DNA of 40,426 nt from Natronocalculus amylovorans (lineage in GTDB: Archaea > Halobacteriota > Halobacteria > Halobacteriales > Haloferacaceae). Within the stretch, counting starts at the first letter, position 1. Each line of letters opens with the position of its first letter. The notes beneath the pieces are model-generated. The model was not told the origin of the DNA and made no database searches. It saw only the letters and a program-made list of their open reading frames with translations. The position numbers were made by a program, and so were the translations under genes. The stretch spans positions 1-40,426 of the forward strand of contig NZ_JAKRVX010000012.1 in NCBI RefSeq assembly GCF_023638035.1, read 5' to 3'. Shown one piece after another: positions 16,745 to 27,004 of this stretch.

Positions 16745-19207
16745 CTAAAGACTGCGTCTCCACACAATCGATTGGACGTTTCCAAGTGTGACGGAGTCGC
16801 GGTCTGCGCCGGTAGCAACGGCGGGTGCGGCGAGTGCTGGCTCCCAGCCATCGGTTGGGAGGTCAGCAATCTCGTCGGCCAAGATTTCCGGTGAGACCTC
16901 AATCGGTGGTCCCTCCATGTTTGCTGCAAAGAGTAGTTGTTCATCACCGTCTGGGGACTCTCGAAGCCCGTAGTAGAGGACGGTTCCGTTTGTTGGATGT
17001 CTGTAGCCGTACGCTTCGTTCCCTTCGTGATCGATATCCGATCGAAGCCATGGACGTTCGTGCCGGAACTCTCTGACCGCCAGGTCGAACGCAGTACGCT
17101 CGTCGTCCTGTTCATCTGCCCAGTGGCTGAGATTTGCGTAGTGATGAATATCTTCCATCCACGCATAAGCGAACGTCTCCAGATCATCAGCAGTAATCTC
17201 CTTGCCAAATGGCGTCTCAAGGGTTGAAAGAACGGTTGCGATCGCATCGAGATCGTAGTCCGTCAGATCAACTGCCGAAAGCAGCGCTCGGATGAACATC
17301 CGAAGGTCGTCTTTCTCAGTAAAGCCGAGCGATTTGAGTCCGCCAAAGAAGCGATCGTCGCCGTACACGTCATCTGGAATCTGCCAATCAACGAGGTATG
17401 CCTCCTCTGCTACAACCTTGACGTTCCATGCCGGATCCGTATCGCGGATGAATCCCCACGGCGATCGCATATTTGCACCGACAAAGTCCATCGGAACGCC
17501 CGGCATGAAACAGTAGAATAGCATCGTTGCCGCAGGGCTGTTGTACGCCTCATTGAGGGTTTCCGGCAGTGTCTCTGCAAGGTGTGGATTCTCTTGTGGG
17601 GCATTCCATGCGTCACCAACTTCGGTCTGTGTTCCACGACGGATGGTGTCATGGTTTGCGACGCCGGTAATCCACTGGCTTCCAAACTCTGCGACCTCTT
17701 TGACGCGCCACCATTTTGTTGCCCAGAATGTAAGCAGTGCAGGCGTGTTGTGCGCAAACGTTACGGGCGACCACTGGAACGCGTGTGGGTGCTGTTCGAT
17801 AAGGGTTCGATACGTCGACGCAAGCTCCCAATCCTCCTGCGGCCATGGCCGGCCATCCTCGTAGATCATCCACGGACGATACTCCGTTCCAGCGACTTCC
17901 TGAGTAATCGCATCCATTTTCGCGAGATACGCATCATCGTGGATCATTTCCTCGCGCTCCGGATCCCAGTAACGGAAGTCCTGTGCACCATCAACCCGGA
18001 TCCCATCCGCTCCGAGGTCCATCTTTCGGCGCTGGAGTTCAAGCAGGATTGCTCGAACGGTTGGCTCTGTATAGTCGAGGTGTTTGCCATACATTCCGGG
18101 GCCCTCAAAGAAGTGCTCCGAAAGGAGTGGAATGGAACCGTTATCGGCGTGCCCAAGCGCAATATCAAAGACAACCTTGATCGGCTCCGGAAGGTTGTGA
18201 CAGGCGGCAATGAAGTCAACTAACTCGTCCGGTCGGTTGCTCTCTAGGATTGCCGGGTTCGTCGCAGAGAAGGCGGAGACAACAATGTCGTATCCCCAGT
18301 TTATCATCTCCGGGTTACCAATTTTGACCTCGATCGACTGTGCATCGGTCGATCGGTCAAGCTGCTGTGGCGTCCAGTAGTCATGAAGGTCGGGATTCTG
18401 TGTAATCGGCTCAGTTGGCATTAGCTGAATCGCATCGTAGCCGACAAAATTCCGCTCTGCTGGGGTCAGCGCCTCGCCAGTCTGGAGTTTCTCACCGATC
18501 GTCTCATATTTTCTTGCAAGCCCGCCAAGACTCCCCGCTTCAGTTGCGGTTCCAGGGTGGATTTCAAGCATACTCACCGCAGGGTCAACCCGTGGAAGTC
18601 CGTCATCTTCACTGGTAGCGACGCGTTCAGCGTCTGTACCGATCGATGCAAAGTAGTCGCGATCGGCACGGTTGGCCTGCAGGTGCTGCATGTCATAGAT
18701 TTCGGACGGTGCATAGACGCCAAACGGAACCGAATCCGCGAGCGGGTCCGGGATGACGCCCCACTCCTCATCTCCGAGGTCGCTCTCTCGTGCGAGGGCT
18801 TCGCCGGGTGTTGGGCGTTTGTAGACCAGTTGGTAGAGCGTCCCAAGCTGTTGCCGTGTACCAGCAGACACATTATCTACGACGGCCCATGTGTAGTCCT
18901 CGTGCTGACGAACTGGAACCTGGTGGCGATCGAACGCAGCCGTCTCGTCCGTTGTCAGGTCAACTGAGCCCGTTGGTGTGTACAGTTCGAGATAGACGTC
19001 CGCTTCAGGTACGTCAGCCTCCGTTAGCTCCGGCGTCCAGAACCCGATCGTCACGGTTCCATCAACATTGACGTGCGAGCCAAGACGCGTGGAAAGTGTT
19101 TCAGCTGCATCGAACTCGCTGGTAGCTGTTTCAGTAACGTCCGTGTGCCATGCAATTAGTTCTGCAGTTTGATCGCTGCAAAGCGTTGGTGAAGTGTTTT
19201 GTGTCAT
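16745..19207 (-). CDS. GH13 glycoside hydrolase, possibly glucosylglycerol hydrolase-like
   Basis: This is an 820-residue alpha-amylase superfamily enzyme. Conserved region I is DIALGHADN (348-356), region II GIRVDGAQD (402-410; nucleophile Asp406), region III WMIYEDG (acid/base Glu450) and region IV GVANHDT (transition-state Asp520). An N-terminal beta-rich domain (about 45-130) and a long helical insertion precede the barrel. The non-standard region I (GHADN in place of the common NH) and the length resemble proteins annotated as glucosylglycerol hydrolases in cyanobacteria and haloarchaea; I give this from memory and with moderate confidence. There is no signal peptide, so it acts in the cytoplasm. 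It lies 47 bp downstream of the second GH13 gene, in one operon. Confidence 0.88.
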   Translation of the reverse strand: MTQNTSPTLCSDQTAELIAWHTDVTETATSEFDAAETLSTRLGSHVNVDGTVTIGFWTPELTEADVPEADVYLELYTPTGSVDLTTDETAAFDRHQVPVRQHEDYTWAVVDNVSAGTRQQLGTLYQLVYKRPTPGEALARESDLGDEEWGVIPDPLADSVPFGVYAPSEIYDMQHLQANRADRDYFASIGTDAERVATSEDDGLPRVDPAVSMLEIHPGTATEAGSLGGLARKYETIGEKLQTGEALTPAERNFVGYDAIQLMPTEPITQNPDLHDYWTPQQLDRSTDAQSIEVKIGNPEMINWGYDIVVSAFSATNPAILESNRPDELVDFIAACHNLPEPIKVVFDIALGHADNGSIPLLSEHFFEGPGMYGKHLDYTEPTVRAILLELQRRKMDLGADGIRVDGAQDFRYWDPEREEMIHDDAYLAKMDAITQEVAGTEYRPWMIYEDGRPWPQEDWELASTYRTLIEQHPHAFQWSPVTFAHNTPALLTFWATKWWRVKEVAEFGSQWITGVANHDTIRRGTQTEVGDAWNAPQENPHLAETLPETLNEAYNSPAATMLFYCFMPGVPMDFVGANMRSPWGFIRDTDPAWNVKVVAEEAYLVDWQIPDDVYGDDRFFGGLKSLGFTEKDDLRMFIRALLSAVDLTDYDLDAIATVLSTLETPFGKEITADDLETFAYAWMEDIHHYANLSHWADEQDDERTAFDLAVREFRHERPWLRSDIDHEGNEAYGYRHPTNGTVLYYGLRESPDGDEQLLFAANMEGPPIEVSPEILADEIADLPTDGWEPALAAPAVATGADRDSVTLGNVQSIVWRRSL

Positions 19208-19254: not shown

Positions 19255-21294
19255 TTAGTTCAGTTTGAAAACAGCGGCATCCTCAACGAGGAGGCCGTTT
19301 TCGGATGCACGATTCTCACCGGAAACGAGGTCTGTTGCATCAACCGTGACGTCGACACCGACCTCTACGTCTCCTTCCGCAAAGTTGAGACAGACAAGCA
19401 GCGACTCATCTCCTGTGTGCCGGACAAACGCAACTGCATCGTTCGGATGTGCGTTATCAGCGGCTGTCACAGTGTAGTCAATCCGATTGAGATCACCGGT
19501 AGATCCAAGCGAGTCGTATTCGTCGTGAAGTGCGATGAGATCATCATAGTGCGATCGAATTTCATCGCGTGCATGGTTCCATGCAAGCGCATCACGACGA
19601 CCACGCTGACCGAGTTCCTGACCGCCGTAAAGCATTGGAATACCAGGAAGCGTAAAGAGGGCACCAGCCGCAGCCAAGCCGGCATCGTCGCCACATTCAA
19701 CGATGTACCGTGTCTCGTCATGGTTCTCTAGGTAGAGCATAAATGCAGCGTGGTCCGGGAACCCACTTTCCGCTCGGCCATCAATCGCATCTAAGAGGGC
19801 CTCTGCAGGCTCGTTTCCACGGCCGATCTGTCGGAGTGTGAAGTAGAGCGTTGTATCAAAGTGAACATCGAACATTCCTTCGTGGAAGTCTTCGATATAC
19901 GGAATCGTCTCATCTAAAAGCAAAAACTCTCTGTCCTTTGCTTTGATCCGATCGCGGATCTCTTTCCAGAACGAATCAGGAACTGCCCATGCCATATCAC
20001 AGCGGAACCCATCTGCGACTTCGGCCCACTCGTCAACAGCCGCAAGGAGATGCTGTCGGACTTCAAGGTTTGTGTAATCAAAATTAGCAATAAGCTCCCA
20101 ATCAAAGTAGGTTCCTGGCTCGCCGTTGTCCTGCCATTCGTACCAGTCGTAATACGGTGATTCAGGATTCTGGTATGCGGACTCGAAATATGGGTGATCA
20201 CGGGCAGAGTGGTTAAGAACGAGATCAAACAGGACTGCCATGCCGCGCTCGTGTGCTGCATCAACAAATGACTCGTATGCCTCACGCGTTCCAAGATCAT
20301 CCGCAATCGAAAAGAAGTCCGTGATGTTGTACCCATGAGGCTTTCCGTCGTGTTGGAGTACCGGTGTCAACCACAGCGTATCAACACCAAGCTCTTCGAG
20401 GTACGGAAGTCTGTCTTCAAGCGCCTCGAAGGTATTAGTTGCATCTTCGTCATCGGATGCAAAGCCGCGGACGTAGATTTCGTAGAGGGTTGCATCTGTT
20501 GCCCACTCTGGTGGATCGTTGAGTCGGACAATGTCGATCGAATCCGGTGATGGAATCGCTCCAGCGTGTCCGGTTACGTCACTTTCTGTATTGACCACAT
20601 ACTCATCGGTACGCTCAATTGAGACCGCATCAGCAACACTGTAGCTGTCACCAATTGCAACTGCGTGGACTCTGAGCTGTTCAGTGCGTTCGAAGACAGA
20701 GAGTGGGACTTCGACGGTTCGATCGGTGATCGTAACCGCACTTTTTGAGATGCCATCTCGGTCGTCAAGCACGAACTCAACCGAAAGATCGCCAGCCGAT
20801 CGCGACGAGTTCGGGTGTGGTGATGGTGTTGCGTGGATCGTTACAGTCTCTGTCTCTTCGTTGACAGTGCCATCAAGTCTGATACGTGGGCGACCTGTTG
20901 GAAGATTTTGTTGTTCGCCGAGTGCGCCGGAGCCAGAACCGCTAATTCCGCCACTTTGCCCACCAGAGCGTGGGCGAGCAGAACCGCTGAAGCCGCTGTA
21001 GCCGCTGTATCCACTGCGACCCGTTGCGCCGCCAAGACTTGTTGGCCGCTTGTCACTCGAGAAGACACGTATGGTGAGGTTGTGTGTGCCATCTGGTGCA
21101 TCGAGAGCGAGAGTGTATTGCCCTGCGGCGTCAGGAACAAAAGAAATAATCGCATCGCTTCCGAGTTCGACAGTACTTGCGATCGGCGCATCAACAATAG
21201 ACCACGCGTATGCTACGTCTGGATCAGGATTGCGTGGTGCTAATTCAACTGTGTCGCCAACAGCGACAAATCGTGGTGGACCTGGATGGTGCAT
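19255..21294 (-). CDS. Intracellular GH13 alpha-amylase/cyclomaltodextrinase-like enzyme with Gly/Ser linker
   Basis: The 679-residue enzyme has an N-terminal PKD/Ig-like domain (about 1-80), a low-complexity Gly/Ser linker (86-128, with repeated SGYSG units), a second beta domain (135-235) and the GH13 barrel. Catalytic regions are FDLVLNHS (356-363), GFRCDMAW (429-436; nucleophile Asp433), LLLDETIP (acid/base Glu462) and LENHDET (NHD 524-526). No signal peptide is seen, so it probably degrades maltodextrin inside the cell. The start at ATG 21294 fits a TATA element about 31 nt upstream; an extended frame to 21351 adds 19 residues encoded across that promoter. Confidence 0.93.
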   Translation of the reverse strand: MHHPGPPRFVAVGDTVELAPRNPDPDVAYAWSIVDAPIASTVELGSDAIISFVPDAAGQYTLALDAPDGTHNLTIRVFSSDKRPTSLGGATGRSGYSGYSGFSGSARPRSGGQSGGISGSGSGALGEQQNLPTGRPRIRLDGTVNEETETVTIHATPSPHPNSSRSAGDLSVEFVLDDRDGISKSAVTITDRTVEVPLSVFERTEQLRVHAVAIGDSYSVADAVSIERTDEYVVNTESDVTGHAGAIPSPDSIDIVRLNDPPEWATDATLYEIYVRGFASDDEDATNTFEALEDRLPYLEELGVDTLWLTPVLQHDGKPHGYNITDFFSIADDLGTREAYESFVDAAHERGMAVLFDLVLNHSARDHPYFESAYQNPESPYYDWYEWQDNGEPGTYFDWELIANFDYTNLEVRQHLLAAVDEWAEVADGFRCDMAWAVPDSFWKEIRDRIKAKDREFLLLDETIPYIEDFHEGMFDVHFDTTLYFTLRQIGRGNEPAEALLDAIDGRAESGFPDHAAFMLYLENHDETRYIVECGDDAGLAAAGALFTLPGIPMLYGGQELGQRGRRDALAWNHARDEIRSHYDDLIALHDEYDSLGSTGDLNRIDYTVTAADNAHPNDAVAFVRHTGDESLLVCLNFAEGDVEVGVDVTVDATDLVSGENRASENGLLVEDAAVFKLN

Positions 21295-21521
21295 AGTTCT
21301 AGAATAGAATACGGTCACTTTTGTTTTATGTATTGGGGAAGTATTGTTCACTACTGTAGTAAATAACTCCTGTTTATATACACGACAACTGCGTAATATT
21401 GTACCTAATCACTAGACTGGGTGCTGGTTAGCCAGATGTTGCTCCTAATTGGAAGTTTCTGCTGCGGTGGTTCCTGCGAAAAGGCGGCAATACTTATCAG
21501 TCGATATCTATAGATGTGGAT
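21295..21521. promoter_or_regulatory. Divergent control region of the glucan-degrading genes
   Basis: This gap separates the GH13 operon from the GH15 gene. A minus-strand TATA (CATAAAACAA, plus positions 21321-21330) lies about 31 nt before ATG 21294. A plus-strand TATA (AATACTTATC, 21489-21498) lies about 28 nt before ATG 21522. A palindrome ACTAC-T-GTAGT (21350-21360) sits just upstream of the minus promoter, and CTGGTTAGCCAG (21424-21435) is a second inverted repeat. They may be operators of a shared regulator; the regulator is not in the window. Confidence 0.5.
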
Positions 21522-24500
21522 ATGCGACTTCGGACAGCAATTAACGAATACAAAGCCCGCCGCGGATCGGTCTATCCGGAAGAGTGTGCAACAACAGATG
21601 GTGCATTCTCTGCCCATGGTGATCGGCTCGTACATATCACTCCAAGCGGGCACCTTCGAGATTATTCTTCTTCCCTTTCTGGGCTTTATGGGTTGGATCG
21701 CTCCCGGTTAGGTATTGAAACTGACAGCGGGACCCGTTGGTTTGACGAGTTCCAAACCGTACGACAGCACTACTATCGTGAGACCAATTTGGTTGAGACA
21801 GAGTACGATGCAGGTGAGTTTACCGTTCACCAGTATGATCTCACGCTCGGTCGCGCACACGCAACACACGTCGAACTCCGTGGCTCAATTCCGGTGAATG
21901 CGGAGTTGACTGCATTTTTGACCTTTGCACCAGAAGGCACAGAGAGTCAAGTTGGCCGACTTATTCATAATGAAGGTGGGCCTGATGGGTCGAAAGCGGT
22001 CGAAATTTTTCACCGAACAGAACACGATTACGTAACTGCATCAACCGGAATCTCGACAGTCGGTGGCCAGATTCCAGAGCGGTTTGATGAGATTATGTCG
22101 GACGAGCATTTTGAGTTCCCGCGAGACGCGGTGCTTGAAAAATATGAAGATACACACCTTAGCGGCGACGTTGTGGTGAGTGCCCCACTTGAACGATCGG
22201 GGCGCGCCGTACAGACAACCCTCGTCACACAGCTCTCAGATCATACGGAAGTCGATCGAGAAACGGCACTTGCAGATCTCAGACAGTGTGCGATCGATCA
22301 CCAAACCGCAGATGAGATTCGGCAATCAGCACGCGATCGAGCAGATATCCGAATCCCTGAAAGTGCACCAAATGCGACAATTGTTCGACAGGATCTCCGA
22401 TCATTGTCGCTCCTTACTGCACCGACCGGCGTACATATTGCCGGGCCGGAGTTTGACCCATTCTACGCACACTCAGGCGGTTACGGCTACACATGGTTCC
22501 GCGACGAATCCGAAACGGGGCGGTATCTACTCACCTCCAATGAGCTGCTAGGACTAGACATTGCAGACGAACTCATTGCGACTGCACAGTTCCTTTGTGA
22601 GACACAGTCAGCAGACGGGAGCTGGTCGCACAGAGCATGGGCAATTGATGGCTCTATTGCTCCGGGATGGGCGCATGGACGGCTCGAAGGAAACAAGCCT
22701 GATGAGTATCAAGCCGATCAAACCGCAAGTGCAATTACATTCCTTACGGACGTGCTTACAGCCCACGAAGCGGATATTAGCGAGACAACAACAGACGAAA
22801 TTGTACGAACGATCGAAGCCGGTGTTGAGTCGCTTGATGAAACAATCGCTGACAATGGGTTACCACAGCGGTGTCAGAATCTCTGGGAAAACATGTCCGG
22901 ACAGTTTACTCATACTGCTGCGACATACCTCACCGCCTACGCAACCATTGCGGACGCATCCGTTCCGGTATCGCTTCAAGCCCACGCTGAGTCGAAAGCG
23001 GAGGATGTGTTTGAGGCGATCGACCAACTATGGTCCGCTGAGAGAGAGGCATATGGCCTTCGGTTAGATTATGGCTCACTTGACAATCGGCTTGACTCGG
23101 CTGGATTTGCGCTCGTAGACGCATTCCGAGCCTACGATACAATTTCGGAGATTGATGAGAAGTCCATTAAGAAGCTTTGTTCGCACGTGAAGACGCTCTC
23201 AGAGGAACTCTATCGCGATCCAAACGGCCCTGTGGAAGGGCTGATTCGGTTTGAAGGCGACGGATGGCGAAAAAGTGGACAGAGCGAATCAAAAGTGTGG
23301 TCCGTATCGACCGGATGGGGTGCTACCGCGAACGCCCTGCTGGGTGCATTTTTGGATGCCCGCGGTGATGATGCAGATGCGGTATTCGATCGGGCAGGTG
23401 AGCTCTATATGTTGCTACTATCTGAAGGGCCGCTCACAACGAATGCGGGATATCTGGCAGAACAGGTGTTCGATGACGGACGACATGACAGCGCAACACC
23501 GCTTGGCTGGTCACATGCACTCCGACTCCACACAACTGCAGTGCTGCGGGAGTATGATGCACTCCCAACAAGTGCAGAGACGCCGTCCGGGCCGGGCGAT
23601 CAACCACACTGGACAACTGGCGAAAAATACGGTGTTGGGACAGTCGCAGATCATGGTGCAGAGGAGCCATCAAAAGTCTGGTTTACACTAACCGAAGGTG
23701 CACTGACAGAGCTTCGATTCCCACGGATCGACCTAATGAACATCCGAACGGTTGACTTTCTGATTGTCGATGCGGATGAAGATTCAGACTATACCGCTCG
23801 TACATACAATGAAACACGCCGAGATGACGAGAACGAAACCGTTACTCGTCGCGTGGAACCAGTCGAAACTGATGCACTCTCGTTCCGCCATATCATCGAA
23901 GAGAAAGGTGATGGACGGGGACACGAATGGAAACTCGTTGTTGAGTACGCGGTTGATCCAAATCATGATGCACTCCTTGCTGATGTACAGTTTACTGCTG
24001 GCAACGGCTCCGAATATGAGCTGTATGCGATCGCAGATACGTCGTTGACAAATACTGGCACTGCCGATCGGGGGCTCACACTTGGAAAAGCAGGTGGGTT
24101 CCATGTTGCCGCGCGTGATTCAAGTGCTTATGATGCGGACGCAAGTTCGCTGCTAGTTGATGAGAACGGCGAGCCATACAGCGTTGCTGTTGCAATGACA
24201 ACGCCAAACCGATTTGATTGGGCGACCGTTGGTGTTGCAGGCAGCGAGCATCTCACCCAGCTATTCTCGGACGGAGTGCAACCAGCCGCACAGAACCGCG
24301 CTGATAATGCGAATGTGGTCTTGGTTGGTCGGTTTGGGGTTGGAGATATTGATGAAACGCTTGCAATTGGCTTTGGAGAGAACGCAGATACCGCAGCAGC
24401 ACTCGGTGAGGCAGAGGGTGCGATCGCCAGATCGTTTGAAACCGTTCGAGCGGACTATATCAACACCTGGCGGACGTGGCTCGATGATAAACCACTTCCA

Positions 24501-26045
24501 GACAGTGTTGCAGGTGATGCCGTACTGGAGCCACAGTACCTGAGCTGTCTGATGGCACTTCGAGCAGTTGAAGATAAAACGTTCCTCGGGGCAGGGATTG
24601 CATCGCCGTCAGTCCCGTGGGGAGAAGTTGTTGACGCCGAAGAAGAACGAGGGTATGGATACAACTTCGTTTGGTCGCGTGATCTATATCAGGTGTTTAC
24701 TGTCTTTGAGGCGATCGGTGATATCAAGACTGCACAGGATGCGCTTGAGTACATCTACAACTACCAACAAGACAAAGAAGGGTTCATTCCTCAGAATACC
24801 TACGTAAACGGAACTACCCGTTGGGGTGGTGAACAGATGGATAACATCTCGTTCCCACAGGTGATGGCATATCAACTTCGAGAGCGTGGGGTAACATTTG
24901 ATGATGCCTCCTACGATTTCAGCAATATCAAAGCATCCGCAGATTACGTTGCTCGGAATGGTCCACCAACAGCCCAAGAGCGTTGGGAAGAAGAAGCCGG
25001 CTACTCTCCATCATCGATTGCTGCAGAGGTTGCAGGTCTTGTCTGTGCGGCTGACCTTGCGATCGAGGAATCGAAACTTGCAGATGCGCTGATCTGGCTT
25101 GGGTTGGCAGATGAGTGGACCGATCGGGTTGAAGAGTGGTGTGCAACCGAAACCGGAACAGAACTGCACACAAACACGCCATACTATGTCCGCGTAACTC
25201 GGGATGGCAACCCGGAGGCAGGTCATCTTCGGACACTTGCGAATGCTGGCCCAACGCTTGACGAGCGAGAGATCATTGATGGTGGGTTCCTTGAGCTAAC
25301 TCGGCTCGGAATTAAGTCGTGGGACGATCAGATCATTCAAAACTCGTTAGCTGAGGTTGATAAGACGATTCGTGTCGATACACCAGTTGGCCCTGCATTC
25401 TATCGCTACAACGGCGACGGGTACGGTGAGCGTGCTGTTGGAGACGAAGGTGCACCATGGTCCGTTGAAACAAAAGGCAAAGGTCGCCTGTGGCCGATAT
25501 TCTCGGGTGAACGTGGCGAATATGAGCTACTCGCAGGAACGGCTGATGGTGACCTTGCACCGGAGAATCTCTTAGAGACGATGGCAGGCTTTGCAAATAG
25601 CGGTCGAATGCTTGCCGAACAGGTTTGGGACCGTGGTCACAGTACCGATTACAACTGGGAGTTTGGTGAAGGGACTGGCTCTGCAACGCCGCTCGCTTGG
25701 AGTATGGCACAGTTCATTCGGTTGGCCCACGGCGTCGCTGCGGGCACGCCGGTTGAGATGCCACGCGTTGTTTCCGATCGGTACATAAACAAAGCGCGGC
25801 CAGAAGGTCCATCACTTCGGGTTGAAAGCCGAATCATCGACAACCGGCTCCAAATTACTGGCGAAACAGACGGAGACGTTATTGGCGTAAAAGCAAATGA
25901 CGACACGACGATCGAAACCGACTGTGATGGGACGTTTGAGCTGTTTGTTCCGATCAGTCACGGCGATACAACAGTCACGGTTGCTGCAGCGACAAGTAAA
26001 AAGCTGCGAGATGCGGGCATCTCTGTTGAACGCTTTACGATCTAA
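21522..26045 (+). CDS. Tandem GH15 glucoamylase (two glucan 1,4-alpha-glucosidase domains)
   Basis: The 1507-residue protein contains two glucoamylase-like halves. In the first (about 1-695) the substrate loop YTWFRDE, the acid Glu456 in NLWENMSG and the base Glu647 in LAEQVFDDG are present. In the second (about 710-1425) NFVWSRDLYQ, Glu1156 in RWEEEAGYSPSS and Glu1366 in LAEQVWDRG take these roles, and each half has a SATPLxWS motif. The second half begins with a beta-sandwich domain (about 710-960), as in archaeal/bacterial GH15 enzymes. A C-terminal beta domain (1430-1507) ends the protein. No signal peptide is visible. ATG 21522 is preferred to GTG 21516 by TATA spacing. It releases glucose from alpha-glucans with the neighbouring GH13 enzymes. 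Confidence 0.92.
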   Translation: MRLRTAINEYKARRGSVYPEECATTDGAFSAHGDRLVHITPSGHLRDYSSSLSGLYGLDRSRLGIETDSGTRWFDEFQTVRQHYYRETNLVETEYDAGEFTVHQYDLTLGRAHATHVELRGSIPVNAELTAFLTFAPEGTESQVGRLIHNEGGPDGSKAVEIFHRTEHDYVTASTGISTVGGQIPERFDEIMSDEHFEFPRDAVLEKYEDTHLSGDVVVSAPLERSGRAVQTTLVTQLSDHTEVDRETALADLRQCAIDHQTADEIRQSARDRADIRIPESAPNATIVRQDLRSLSLLTAPTGVHIAGPEFDPFYAHSGGYGYTWFRDESETGRYLLTSNELLGLDIADELIATAQFLCETQSADGSWSHRAWAIDGSIAPGWAHGRLEGNKPDEYQADQTASAITFLTDVLTAHEADISETTTDEIVRTIEAGVESLDETIADNGLPQRCQNLWENMSGQFTHTAATYLTAYATIADASVPVSLQAHAESKAEDVFEAIDQLWSAEREAYGLRLDYGSLDNRLDSAGFALVDAFRAYDTISEIDEKSIKKLCSHVKTLSEELYRDPNGPVEGLIRFEGDGWRKSGQSESKVWSVSTGWGATANALLGAFLDARGDDADAVFDRAGELYMLLLSEGPLTTNAGYLAEQVFDDGRHDSATPLGWSHALRLHTTAVLREYDALPTSAETPSGPGDQPHWTTGEKYGVGTVADHGAEEPSKVWFTLTEGALTELRFPRIDLMNIRTVDFLIVDADEDSDYTARTYNETRRDDENETVTRRVEPVETDALSFRHIIEEKGDGRGHEWKLVVEYAVDPNHDALLADVQFTAGNGSEYELYAIADTSLTNTGTADRGLTLGKAGGFHVAARDSSAYDADASSLLVDENGEPYSVAVAMTTPNRFDWATVGVAGSEHLTQLFSDGVQPAAQNRADNANVVLVGRFGVGDIDETLAIGFGENADTAAALGEAEGAIARSFETVRADYINTWRTWLDDKPLPDSVAGDAVLEPQYLSCLMALRAVEDKTFLGAGIASPSVPWGEVVDAEEERGYGYNFVWSRDLYQVFTVFEAIGDIKTAQDALEYIYNYQQDKEGFIPQNTYVNGTTRWGGEQMDNISFPQVMAYQLRERGVTFDDASYDFSNIKASADYVARNGPPTAQERWEEEAGYSPSSIAAEVAGLVCAADLAIEESKLADALIWLGLADEWTDRVEEWCATETGTELHTNTPYYVRVTRDGNPEAGHLRTLANAGPTLDEREIIDGGFLELTRLGIKSWDDQIIQNSLAEVDKTIRVDTPVGPAFYRYNGDGYGERAVGDEGAPWSVETKGKGRLWPIFSGERGEYELLAGTADGDLAPENLLETMAGFANSGRMLAEQVWDRGHSTDYNWEFGEGTGSATPLAWSMAQFIRLAHGVAAGTPVEMPRVVSDRYINKARPEGPSLRVESRIIDNRLQITGETDGDVIGVKANDDTTIETDCDGTFELFVPISHGDTTVTVAAATSKKLRDAGISVERFTI

Positions 26046-26094
26046 GACTCGCTGAGCAGACGGCCTTTTGCGTCTTGCGTTCCAATACACCAGT

Positions 26095-26574
26095 ATGCCG
26101 ACGTATTCACGGCGAACGCGGATTGCCGCTCCACTATCTACTGTGTGGGATTTTCATTCGACAATTGACGGTCTGCGAACACTGACACCTGAGTGGATGC
26201 ACCTTGATATTGTGAGCGTTCATGGACCGGATGGAGAACTGGATCCAAACATATTGGAGACCGGCTCACAGATCGAGATGTCAATGCAGCCGTTCGGCGT
26301 TGGGCCACGACAGTCGTGGATCTCACGAATTACCGAACGAGAGCGCAAAGATGGATATGCGATGTTTCGTGACGACATGCTTGGTGGCCCATTTGCGCTT
26401 TGGGTTCATACCCACGAGTTCTATGGGGATGGTGATGAGACGATACTGGTTGATACTGTCGAGTATGAACTCCCATTCGGTCCTGTTGGGCGGCTTGGAA
26501 ACCCATTCTCAAAAGTTGGGTTTGAGGGAATGTTCCGCGATCGCCACACAAAGACCAAAGCAGTCTTAGAATAA
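26095..26574 (+). CDS. SRPBCC-superfamily protein (START/polyketide cyclase-like)
   Basis: The 159-residue protein starts with a strand and helix (YSRRTRIAAPLSTVWDFHST) typical of Bet v1/SRPBCC ligand-binding proteins, and ends with a long C-terminal helix region (RLGNPFSKVGFEGMFRDRH). It resembles the widespread archaeal/cyanobacterial family fused or linked to cell-division-type functions, but the ligand is unknown. ATG 26095 was chosen; an upstream in-frame start lies in the GH15 intergenic gap without a good signal. The VOC gene follows 10 bp later, so the two are likely co-transcribed. Confidence 0.8.
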   Translation: MPTYSRRTRIAAPLSTVWDFHSTIDGLRTLTPEWMHLDIVSVHGPDGELDPNILETGSQIEMSMQPFGVGPRQSWISRITERERKDGYAMFRDDMLGGPFALWVHTHEFYGDGDETILVDTVEYELPFGPVGRLGNPFSKVGFEGMFRDRHTKTKAVLE

Positions 26575-26584
26575 CAGGATGTGT

Positions 26585-27004
26585 ATGAACGACGAAACAC
26601 CAGTGATTGATGTGGTCGATTTAGACCATGTTGCAATCCGTGTTCAAGACCTCGACGCTGCATTGACATTCTATGTGGACGTACTTGGAATGGAAACACG
26701 AGATCGCGATCGGTTCGAGAATGGTGACGTCCCGTTTGTATCCCTTGTTGCAGGTGGTCGACACATCCATGTTGTCCCGACAGATGAGTCAATTAACGTC
26801 GAAAATGAGCATATCTGTTATCTGCTTCGATCGAAGCATGTCGATTCAAAAGCAGAGTTAGTGGCTATTTTGGATCAGATTGCAGACGCAGGGTACGACG
26901 TACTTCAAGACGAGCCGAAGAAGCGGTTCGGAGCATATGGCCGTGGGTGGGCTGGATATGTCCGTGACCCAGATGGTCGGATCGTAGAATTAAAACTCCA
27001 CTAG
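26585..27004 (+). CDS. VOC-family (glyoxalase/dioxygenase fold) protein
   Basis: The 139-residue protein has a single vicinal-oxygen-chelate domain: DLDHVAIRVQDLDAALTFYVDVLGM supplies the first metal His, and the second half has GWAGYVRDPDGRIVELKL with the terminal Glu. A His pair (GRHIHVV) may complete the site. The reaction is unknown; dimers of such domains act as isomerases, dioxygenases or resistance proteins. ATG 26585 has AGGA 5 nt upstream at 26576-26579; an in-frame ATG at 26579 would overlap that signal. Confidence 0.87.
   Translation: MNDETPVIDVVDLDHVAIRVQDLDAALTFYVDVLGMETRDRDRFENGDVPFVSLVAGGRHIHVVPTDESINVENEHICYLLRSKHVDSKAELVAILDQIADAGYDVLQDEPKKRFGAYGRGWAGYVRDPDGRIVELKLH

Follow-up and report, generated by a model that had tools for sequence, protein, structure and literature searches.

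Among haloarchaea, a candidate glucoamylase has been described in Haloferax volcanii, HVO_1711, whose C-terminal half matches the glucoamylase of Thermoanaerobacterium thermosaccharolyticum (TtGA; 1lf6/1lf9) and which is probably connected with a Halorubrum sodomense enzyme (PMC8305020). Within glycoside hydrolase family 15 (GH15), α-1,4 specificity has been tied to Trp390 of TtGA and α-1,6 specificity to Trp582 of the Arthrobacter globiformis glucodextranase AgGD (1ug9/1ulv) (PMC12446779). A protein of the HVO_1711 type is encoded in the stretch of DNA analysed here, 40,426 nucleotides of a contig of Natronocalculus amylovorans (NZ_JAKRVX010000012.1; hereafter the window), in which the frame at positions 21522-26045 of the forward strand is open from ATG 21522 to the stop, its longest reading starting from GTG 21516. 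Judging by its sequence, this tandem GH15 protein of 1507 amino acids is two different GH15 enzymes joined, an archaeal-type N-terminal half (N half, residues 1-684) and a glucodextranase/glucoamylase-like C-terminal half (C half). We consider it likely that it acts as a cytoplasmic inverting exo-α-glucohydrolase of the glucoamylase type, in which two GH15 branches share one chain and both sites work. The protein type as such is already known as a candidate glucoamylase: HVO_1711 shares with the window protein the match of its C-terminal half to TtGA, the six fetched Haloferax loci are tandem, and the two proteins are probably orthologous. The available main text of PMC8305020 describes neither an N half nor two active sites for HVO_1711, and a literature search over titles and abstract openings, with subscription papers mostly outside it, returned no report on two active sites in this protein. 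The parts of the tandem are as follows.

21522..26045, + strand: tandem GH15 protein, 1507 amino acids (open frame; relatives at 24 loci in the searched genome contigs, 23 of them full-length)
21522..22241, + strand: predicted β-rich N-terminal domain of the N half, residues 1-240 (model strands 58-239; alignment to 1ug9/1lf6 from model residues 30-33)
22368..23573, + strand: (α/α)6 barrel of the N half, archaeal-type GH15, residues 283-684 (PF00723 at 296-670; TIGR01577 at 246-671; twelve helices at 285-677)
22887..22889, + strand: Glu456, predicted general acid in the α5-α6 loop (76/76; on the dextran dextrinase acid)
23460..23462, + strand: Glu647, predicted general base in the α11-α12 loop (76/76; on the TtGA base)
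23583..24482, + strand: Glucodextranase_N β-sandwich of the C half, residues 688-987 (PF09137, 211.6 bits against a cut-off of 24.1)
24537..25727, + strand: GH15 barrel of the C half, residues 1006-1402 (PF00723; TIGR01535 below cut-off; 1ug9 and 1lf6)
24822..24824, + strand: Trp1101, counterpart of the α-1,4 Trp390 of TtGA by alignment (72/72)
24987..24989, + strand: Glu1156, predicted general acid (72/72; within an ERWEE motif common to TtGA and AgGD)
25458..25460, + strand: Trp1313, counterpart of the α-1,6 Trp582 of AgGD by alignment, with a gap in TtGA (72/72)
25617..25619, + strand: Glu1366, predicted general base (72/72; aligned with the base of AgGD and TtGA; role from PMC12446779)
25794..26042, + strand: small C-terminal β domain, residues ~1425-1507 (model strands 1432-1506; AgGD alignment to its residue 766)

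The two halves are recognized with very different ease. The C half passes the cut-offs of both PF00723 and Glucodextranase_N, and phmmer matches it to the glucodextranase structure 1ug9 with E 1.3e-133 and to the glucoamylase structure 1lf6 with E 1e-102, while its score against TIGR01535 (glucan 1,4-α-glucosidase), 553.2 bits, lies under the cut-off of 741.9. AgGD and TtGA, which share domain N, the barrel and the acid and base positions with the C half, were aligned by phmmer to that half only. When the protein sequence of the N half is scanned, it reaches 27.5 bits with PF00723, above the gathering score of 22, and PF00723 matched all 21 members of alignment A1 (E <= 1; best 7.5e-15). TIGR01577 (oligosaccharide amylase) matches the N half over the barrel with 104.5 bits, under its cut-off of 820.7; unlike the tandem, the proteins fetched with TIGR01577 consist of one GH15 unit in frames of ~650-705 amino acids. 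Aligned with each other by hhalign, the halves give a probability of 34.6% (E 0.00041) over an aligned stretch of 189 columns, into which both acid motifs fall. Since they are thus remote GH15 branches, a recent internal duplication as the origin of the tandem is not supported. The protein has haloarchaeal relatives, the closest of which (74% identity) occur in Halalkalirubrum salinum and halophilic archaeon SHRA6; the source genome comprises 3.26 Mb on 20 contigs and has a completeness of 99.21%.

All residue counts refer to 56 tandems (that of the window and 55 others), 20 stand-alone N-type proteins and 16 stand-alone C-type proteins, which gives 76 sequences for the N half and 72 for the C half; L049, cut by its contig, and the frame-broken L054 were dropped throughout. 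The original prediction had named Glu456, Glu647, Glu1156 and Glu1366 as two catalytic pairs, and these residues were confirmed at their positions in the translation. As EQ occurs three times (at 647, 1104 and 1366), and likewise the Trp of WE (at 455, 1155 and 1379), motif strings alone could mislead, and the assignment was settled by conservation. Both pairs are indeed kept: all four glutamates are present in 56/56 tandems, the N pair in all 20 stand-alone N-types, and the C pair in all 16 stand-alone C-types. Out of 58 glutamates in the N half, no more than three (E161, E456 and E647) stay unchanged across the 76 sequences. Profile alignment pairs E456 with the dextran dextrinase acid (E 7e-05) and, weakly (E 0.013), E647 with the TtGA base (1lf6). 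The putative subsite -1 residues of the N half, equated with those of 1lf6 through a GGY..W.RD alignment in a low-scoring stretch, are Y321, W325 and R327 (76/76 each) and D328 (75/76); the inverting-type residues by the criteria of PMC12446779 are Q648 (75/76) and A658 (74/76, Gly in L068 and L100). In the C half, Y1047, W1051, R1053, D1054, Q1367 and A1388 are all found in 72/72. At the level of sequence, the presence of competent-looking GH15 sites in both halves is therefore supported.

A model of the N half computed with AlphaFold2 from 21 sequences reached a predicted local distance difference test score (pLDDT) of 69.7 and a predicted template-modelling score of 0.73. From 21 loci, alignment A1 took 20 (without L036) and alignment A2 took 18 (without L036, L037 and L053); L050 was left out of the structure-prediction alignments. 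The N-half model consists of strands at 58-239, a helix pair at 246-274 and twelve helices at 285-677, which predicts a complete two-domain GH15 fold; the earlier statement that reserved the canonical β-sandwich for the second half is thus contradicted by the model, which contains β-sandwich, helix pair and twelve-helix barrel alike. The motif NLWENMSG turned out to be no departure but a usual variant of its own branch, and the dextran dextrinase loop that carries the acid aligns with it. In GH15, the acid is located in the α5-α6 loop and the base in the α11-α12 loop (PMC12446779), and the N-half model agrees, placing E456 between helices 421-439 and 463-478 and E647 between helices 619-630 and 662-677. 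The pLDDT is low in the acid loop and also falls below 50 at residues 1-60 and 182-215.

Comparison of the N-half model with known structures by VIA-align gave dextran dextrinase 9ju0 as top match (Z 32.2, root-mean-square deviation (rmsd) 7.3, 540 residues), and KfIG, an isomaltose glucohydrolase (5z3a), matched with Z 29.2 and rmsd 3.1 over 317 residues. Model residues 33-679 matched 1lf6 (Z 28.7, rmsd 7.5, 524 residues) and residues 30-678 matched 1ug9 (Z 28.5, rmsd 6.9, 535 residues). The rmsd of about 7 for full-length GH15 proteins means either that the two domains are placed differently or that their placement is poorly modelled. Other families of barrel proteins are interspersed among the GH15 rows of this list; matches to cellobiose 2-epimerases (Z 29.6, among the best), GH94, GH116 and others were ascribed to the shared barrel and not read as a sign of function. 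With a pLDDT of 61.8, the C-half model was used for fold matches and terminal strands only; it matched 1lf6 (Z 24.2, rmsd 3.6, 495 residues) and 1ug9 (Z 22.3, rmsd 3.7, 579 residues).

With respect to specificity, the phmmer alignments place W1101 of the C half on Trp390 of TtGA and W1313 on Trp582 of AgGD. Each of the two reference enzymes has one specificity Trp, AgGD carrying Gln at the W1101 position and TtGA a gap at the W1313 position, whereas the C half of the window protein has both. In the N half, the stretch R583-K591, which matches the Trp582 loop of AgGD, contains Trp in 2/76 rows (L032 and L105) and none in the window. Hence, different substrate preferences of the halves are plausible, and the originally proposed bifunctional enzyme with two preferences remains a plausible reading in view of the remote branches, the two competent-looking sites and the presence of both specificity Trp residues in the C half. 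As for the mechanism class, the retaining dextran dextrinase cluster of GH15 carries Gly-Glu and Phe-Tyr dyads as a signature (PMC12446779). These dyads were sought in the 76 N-half sequences and not found: Glu647 is preceded by A, P, S or T and followed by Gln in 75/76, and positions 582-583 are occupied by Trp or Phe and then Arg.

The original prediction had seen no secretion signal, and neither hydropathy nor visual inspection makes one evident at the N terminus of the window protein, no signal-peptide predictor having been run. Hydropathy above 1.6 within the first 80 residues, counted from the first possible start, occurs in 2/55 tandem frames (L050 and L051), where the hydrophobic stretches precede the conserved start MRLRTA. 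The tandem would therefore be cytoplasmic. Some stand-alone C-types have leaders resembling those of the twin-arginine translocation pathway, one of them with a lipobox.

The history of the fusion was addressed with trees built by a quick method, with support from the Shimodaira-Hasegawa-like approximate likelihood-ratio test (SH-aLRT) only. In the N tree, for which ten proteins of the phylum found with TIGR01577 served as outgroup, the 56 tandems form one clade (SH-aLRT 99) that encloses a single stand-alone protein (L087, 4035-6122), a stand-alone N half whose sister is the tandem L073. On a different contig (L088), the genome of L087 has a C-type gene that may encode a leader, which makes this a case of natural fission or loss. 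Deeper branching of the stand-alone N-types is weakly supported (24, 47, 70), except for nodes at 98 and 99. In the C tree, the 16 stand-alone C-types form a single clade (99) that is flanked by tandems on either side, with a remote outgroup of two. These topologies may reflect a single fusion, or some C-types may have arisen by fission of tandems. In Halomicroarcula sp. SYNS111 (L054, 7866-12519), the tandem gene is broken up into four frames, which indicates either a decaying gene or sequencing errors.

Two further glycoside hydrolase genes lie immediately upstream on the opposite strand.

19255..21351, - strand: MalA α-amylase, divergent neighbour (NF041321, 1118 bits against 875; likely start ATG at ~21294, where residue 20 aligns with M1 of a paralog)
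16745..19207, - strand: GHL5 glycoside hydrolase homolog (PF14872, 776.7 bits against 23.7)

For a comparison of contexts, 60 and a further 12 stretches were chosen from search lists for variety and not at random, with 5 of the 12 yielding an N-type GH15; median locus lengths were 10.1 and 12.5 kb in the N-type sets and 20.5 and 10.7 kb in the tandem sets. Owing to this choice and to the unequal flanks, the context counts describe this set only. Among the searched genomes, an N-type match was found in at least 232/391 and a C-type match in at least 178/382. MalA is present in the fetched flanks of 46/55 tandem loci, 35 times on the opposite and 11 times on the same strand, and GHL5 occurs in 13 of the 18 tandem loci that have at least 5 kb upstream. 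The GHL5 gene of the window is the sole GHL5 match in its genome. Downstream of the tandem (26068-27004, + strand) follow polyketide-cyclase-like and glyoxalase-like genes, which recur in many related loci and have no clear link to sugars.

A second locus of the same genome (L146, contig C2, 271500-283000; one of the 5) combines homologs of a TrmB-type regulator, MalA, MalK, MalE, MalF and MalG with a stand-alone N-type GH15 (L146:4075-6135). This protein and the N half share 42% identity, and both Glu align (in QNAWED and LPEQ); in contrast to the tandem, the stand-alone protein lacks a C half and sits with importer genes. The MalA-like protein of L146 is 41% identical to that of the window, and the divergent layout of the MalA and GH15 genes is the same. 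At least one of TrmB, MalK, MalE, MalF and MalG is found in 23/25 loci with a separate N-type gene (MalE, MalF or MalG in 16/25), and in 4/55 tandem loci. Eight of the 25, all among those 23, also have a C-type gene in the same orientation (with MalE, MalF or MalG in 4): in L081, L082, L083, L086 and L101 the C-type comes first and directly adjoins the N-type, and in L084, L085 and L095 the N-type is followed by 1.2-1.6 kb with an opposite-strand MalK before the C-type. Such pairs of separate genes are the pattern expected of cooperating enzymes that were later fused.

The intergenic region between MalA and GH15 in L146 opens with the palindrome TACT-N7-GAGTA, 107 bases before the stand-alone GH15, and TACT-N7/8-GAGTA is presumably the TrmB consensus. 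As a general regulon link of the tandems the box was dropped, being present upstream of 2/56 tandem, 1/25 N-type and 1/16 C-type genes, where shuffled upstream regions gave means of 0.1, 0.07 and 0.02, respectively.

As substrate, the original prediction had offered internal glucan or imported dextrins. At E <= 0.001, the genome, with its assembly 99.21% complete, gave no match to GT5, GH57 or glycogen phosphorylase, the GT3, GT4 and GlgE routes not having been searched; control genomes were matched in 12/14, 9/14 and 12/14 cases, respectively. Haloferax volcanii, a haloarchaeon among the controls of other searches, likewise showed no match for these three. One GH77 is present, and GT20 trehalose-phosphate synthase gave no match. 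Since GT5, GH57, glycogen phosphorylase and GT20 are all without a match, imported or surface-digested dextrins appear likelier than a classical glycogen store. Internal glycogen as the substrate is weakened by the absence of the first three from this search, and imported dextrins are favoured by the L146 locus, but MalE, MalF and MalG are missing from the surroundings of the tandems themselves (see below).

These observations can be combined into a tentative mechanism, for which the architecture, the conservation of residues, the gene context and the clade of the N half are observed, whereas the activity and linkage preference of the halves, the location and the source of the dextrins are deduced. 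In each half, one Glu (Glu1366 in the C half) would activate water and release β-glucose from non-reducing ends. The N half, of common origin with the stand-alone GH15 proteins of haloarchaeal maltodextrin-type import loci, probably trims α-1,4 maltooligosaccharides, and the C half, equipped with the Trp residues for both α-1,4 and α-1,6 bonds, probably trims both linkages. As the C half probably cuts both, one protein could take branched dextrins, shortened by MalA, down to glucose.

A number of points weigh against two working sites fed by imported dextrins. A six-frame Pfam search of the source genome matched the C half only and missed the N half, whose sequence is weakly similar to solved GH15 structures (best E 7e-05). 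The pLDDT of the N-half model drops below 50 at 300-324, 371-396, 454-456, 582-588 and 657-659, so that, with low values in the loops of key residues, the model is no basis for active-site geometry. Individual tandems deviate in the N half: L065 has D328G in subsite -1, L063 has Q648A in a part where the alignment is unsure, and L068 is one of the two proteins with A658G. On the C tree, the tandem label has to change twice. Moreover, MalE, MalF and MalG occur near the tandem in 0/55 loci within the fetched flanks, and in L146 the MalE, MalF, MalG, TrmB and second MalA proteins score below the NCBIfam cut-offs, so that the imported sugar is inferred. Finally, the available text of PMC8305020 contains no assay tying an enzyme of this type to an assigned gene.

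Some of these points would also fit a protein in which the C half alone is catalytic and the N half is a module for binding or scaffolding, either holding the C half or gripping the glucan. The N half is the more divergent one (mean pairwise identity over 55 tandems 54.6, compared with 61.8 for the C half) and scores weakly against GH15 models, and the exchanges in L065 and L063 point in the same direction. Yet, E456 and E647 are retained in every one of the 76 sequences, the subsite -1 set is nearly invariant, and in 17/25 loci with a separate N-type gene the fetched stretch lacks a C-type gene, which makes a non-catalytic N half unlikely. With Asp328 changed to Gly, L065 may be a natural example of an N half that has lost activity.

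It is quite improbable that the N half is instead a trehalase or a hydrolase of another α-glucoside osmolyte such as glucosylglycerol, with the GHL5 locus salvaging compatible solutes. Archaeal trehalases do belong to GH15 (PMC10969515, PMC12446779), and the GHL5 neighbour, frequent at tandem loci with enough flank, represents the family of Slr1670, which is needed for glucosylglycerol re-use in Synechocystis (PMC5002435). However, the stand-alone N-type relatives sit with TrmB, MalK, MalE, MalF and MalG homologs (names below curated cut-offs) and often with a MalA-like gene, trehalose genes not having been searched in these loci, and the genome lacks a GT20 match, other trehalose routes and import lying outside that search. 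A retaining transglucosylase that forms α-1,6 glucan from dextrin is highly improbable: dextran dextrinase 9ju0 is both the top profile hit in the Protein Data Bank and the top fold match of the N half, but the residues of the retaining signature are absent from the N half.

We therefore return to the inverting exo-α-glucohydrolase with two working sites as the preferred reading. A wider proposal, which we regard as possible but doubtful, is that GHL5, MalA and the tandem GH15 form a three-gene haloarchaeal module, in which one cytoplasmic chain with two inverting sites that differ in specificity, and with a C site for α-1,4 and α-1,6 bonds alike, converts branched dextrin and α-glucoside osmolytes into glucose without a separate debranching enzyme.

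The gene of the haloarchaeal candidate glucoamylase was assigned from the C half (PMC8305020); if both halves act, a common enzyme would be bifunctional. In that case, the naturally separate N-type and C-type genes would provide ready-made controls, and the sites could be tested by four point mutations. By analogy with Slr1670, haloarchaea may also use the osmolyte glucosylglycerol, and the neighbouring GHL5 gene makes such a use testable.

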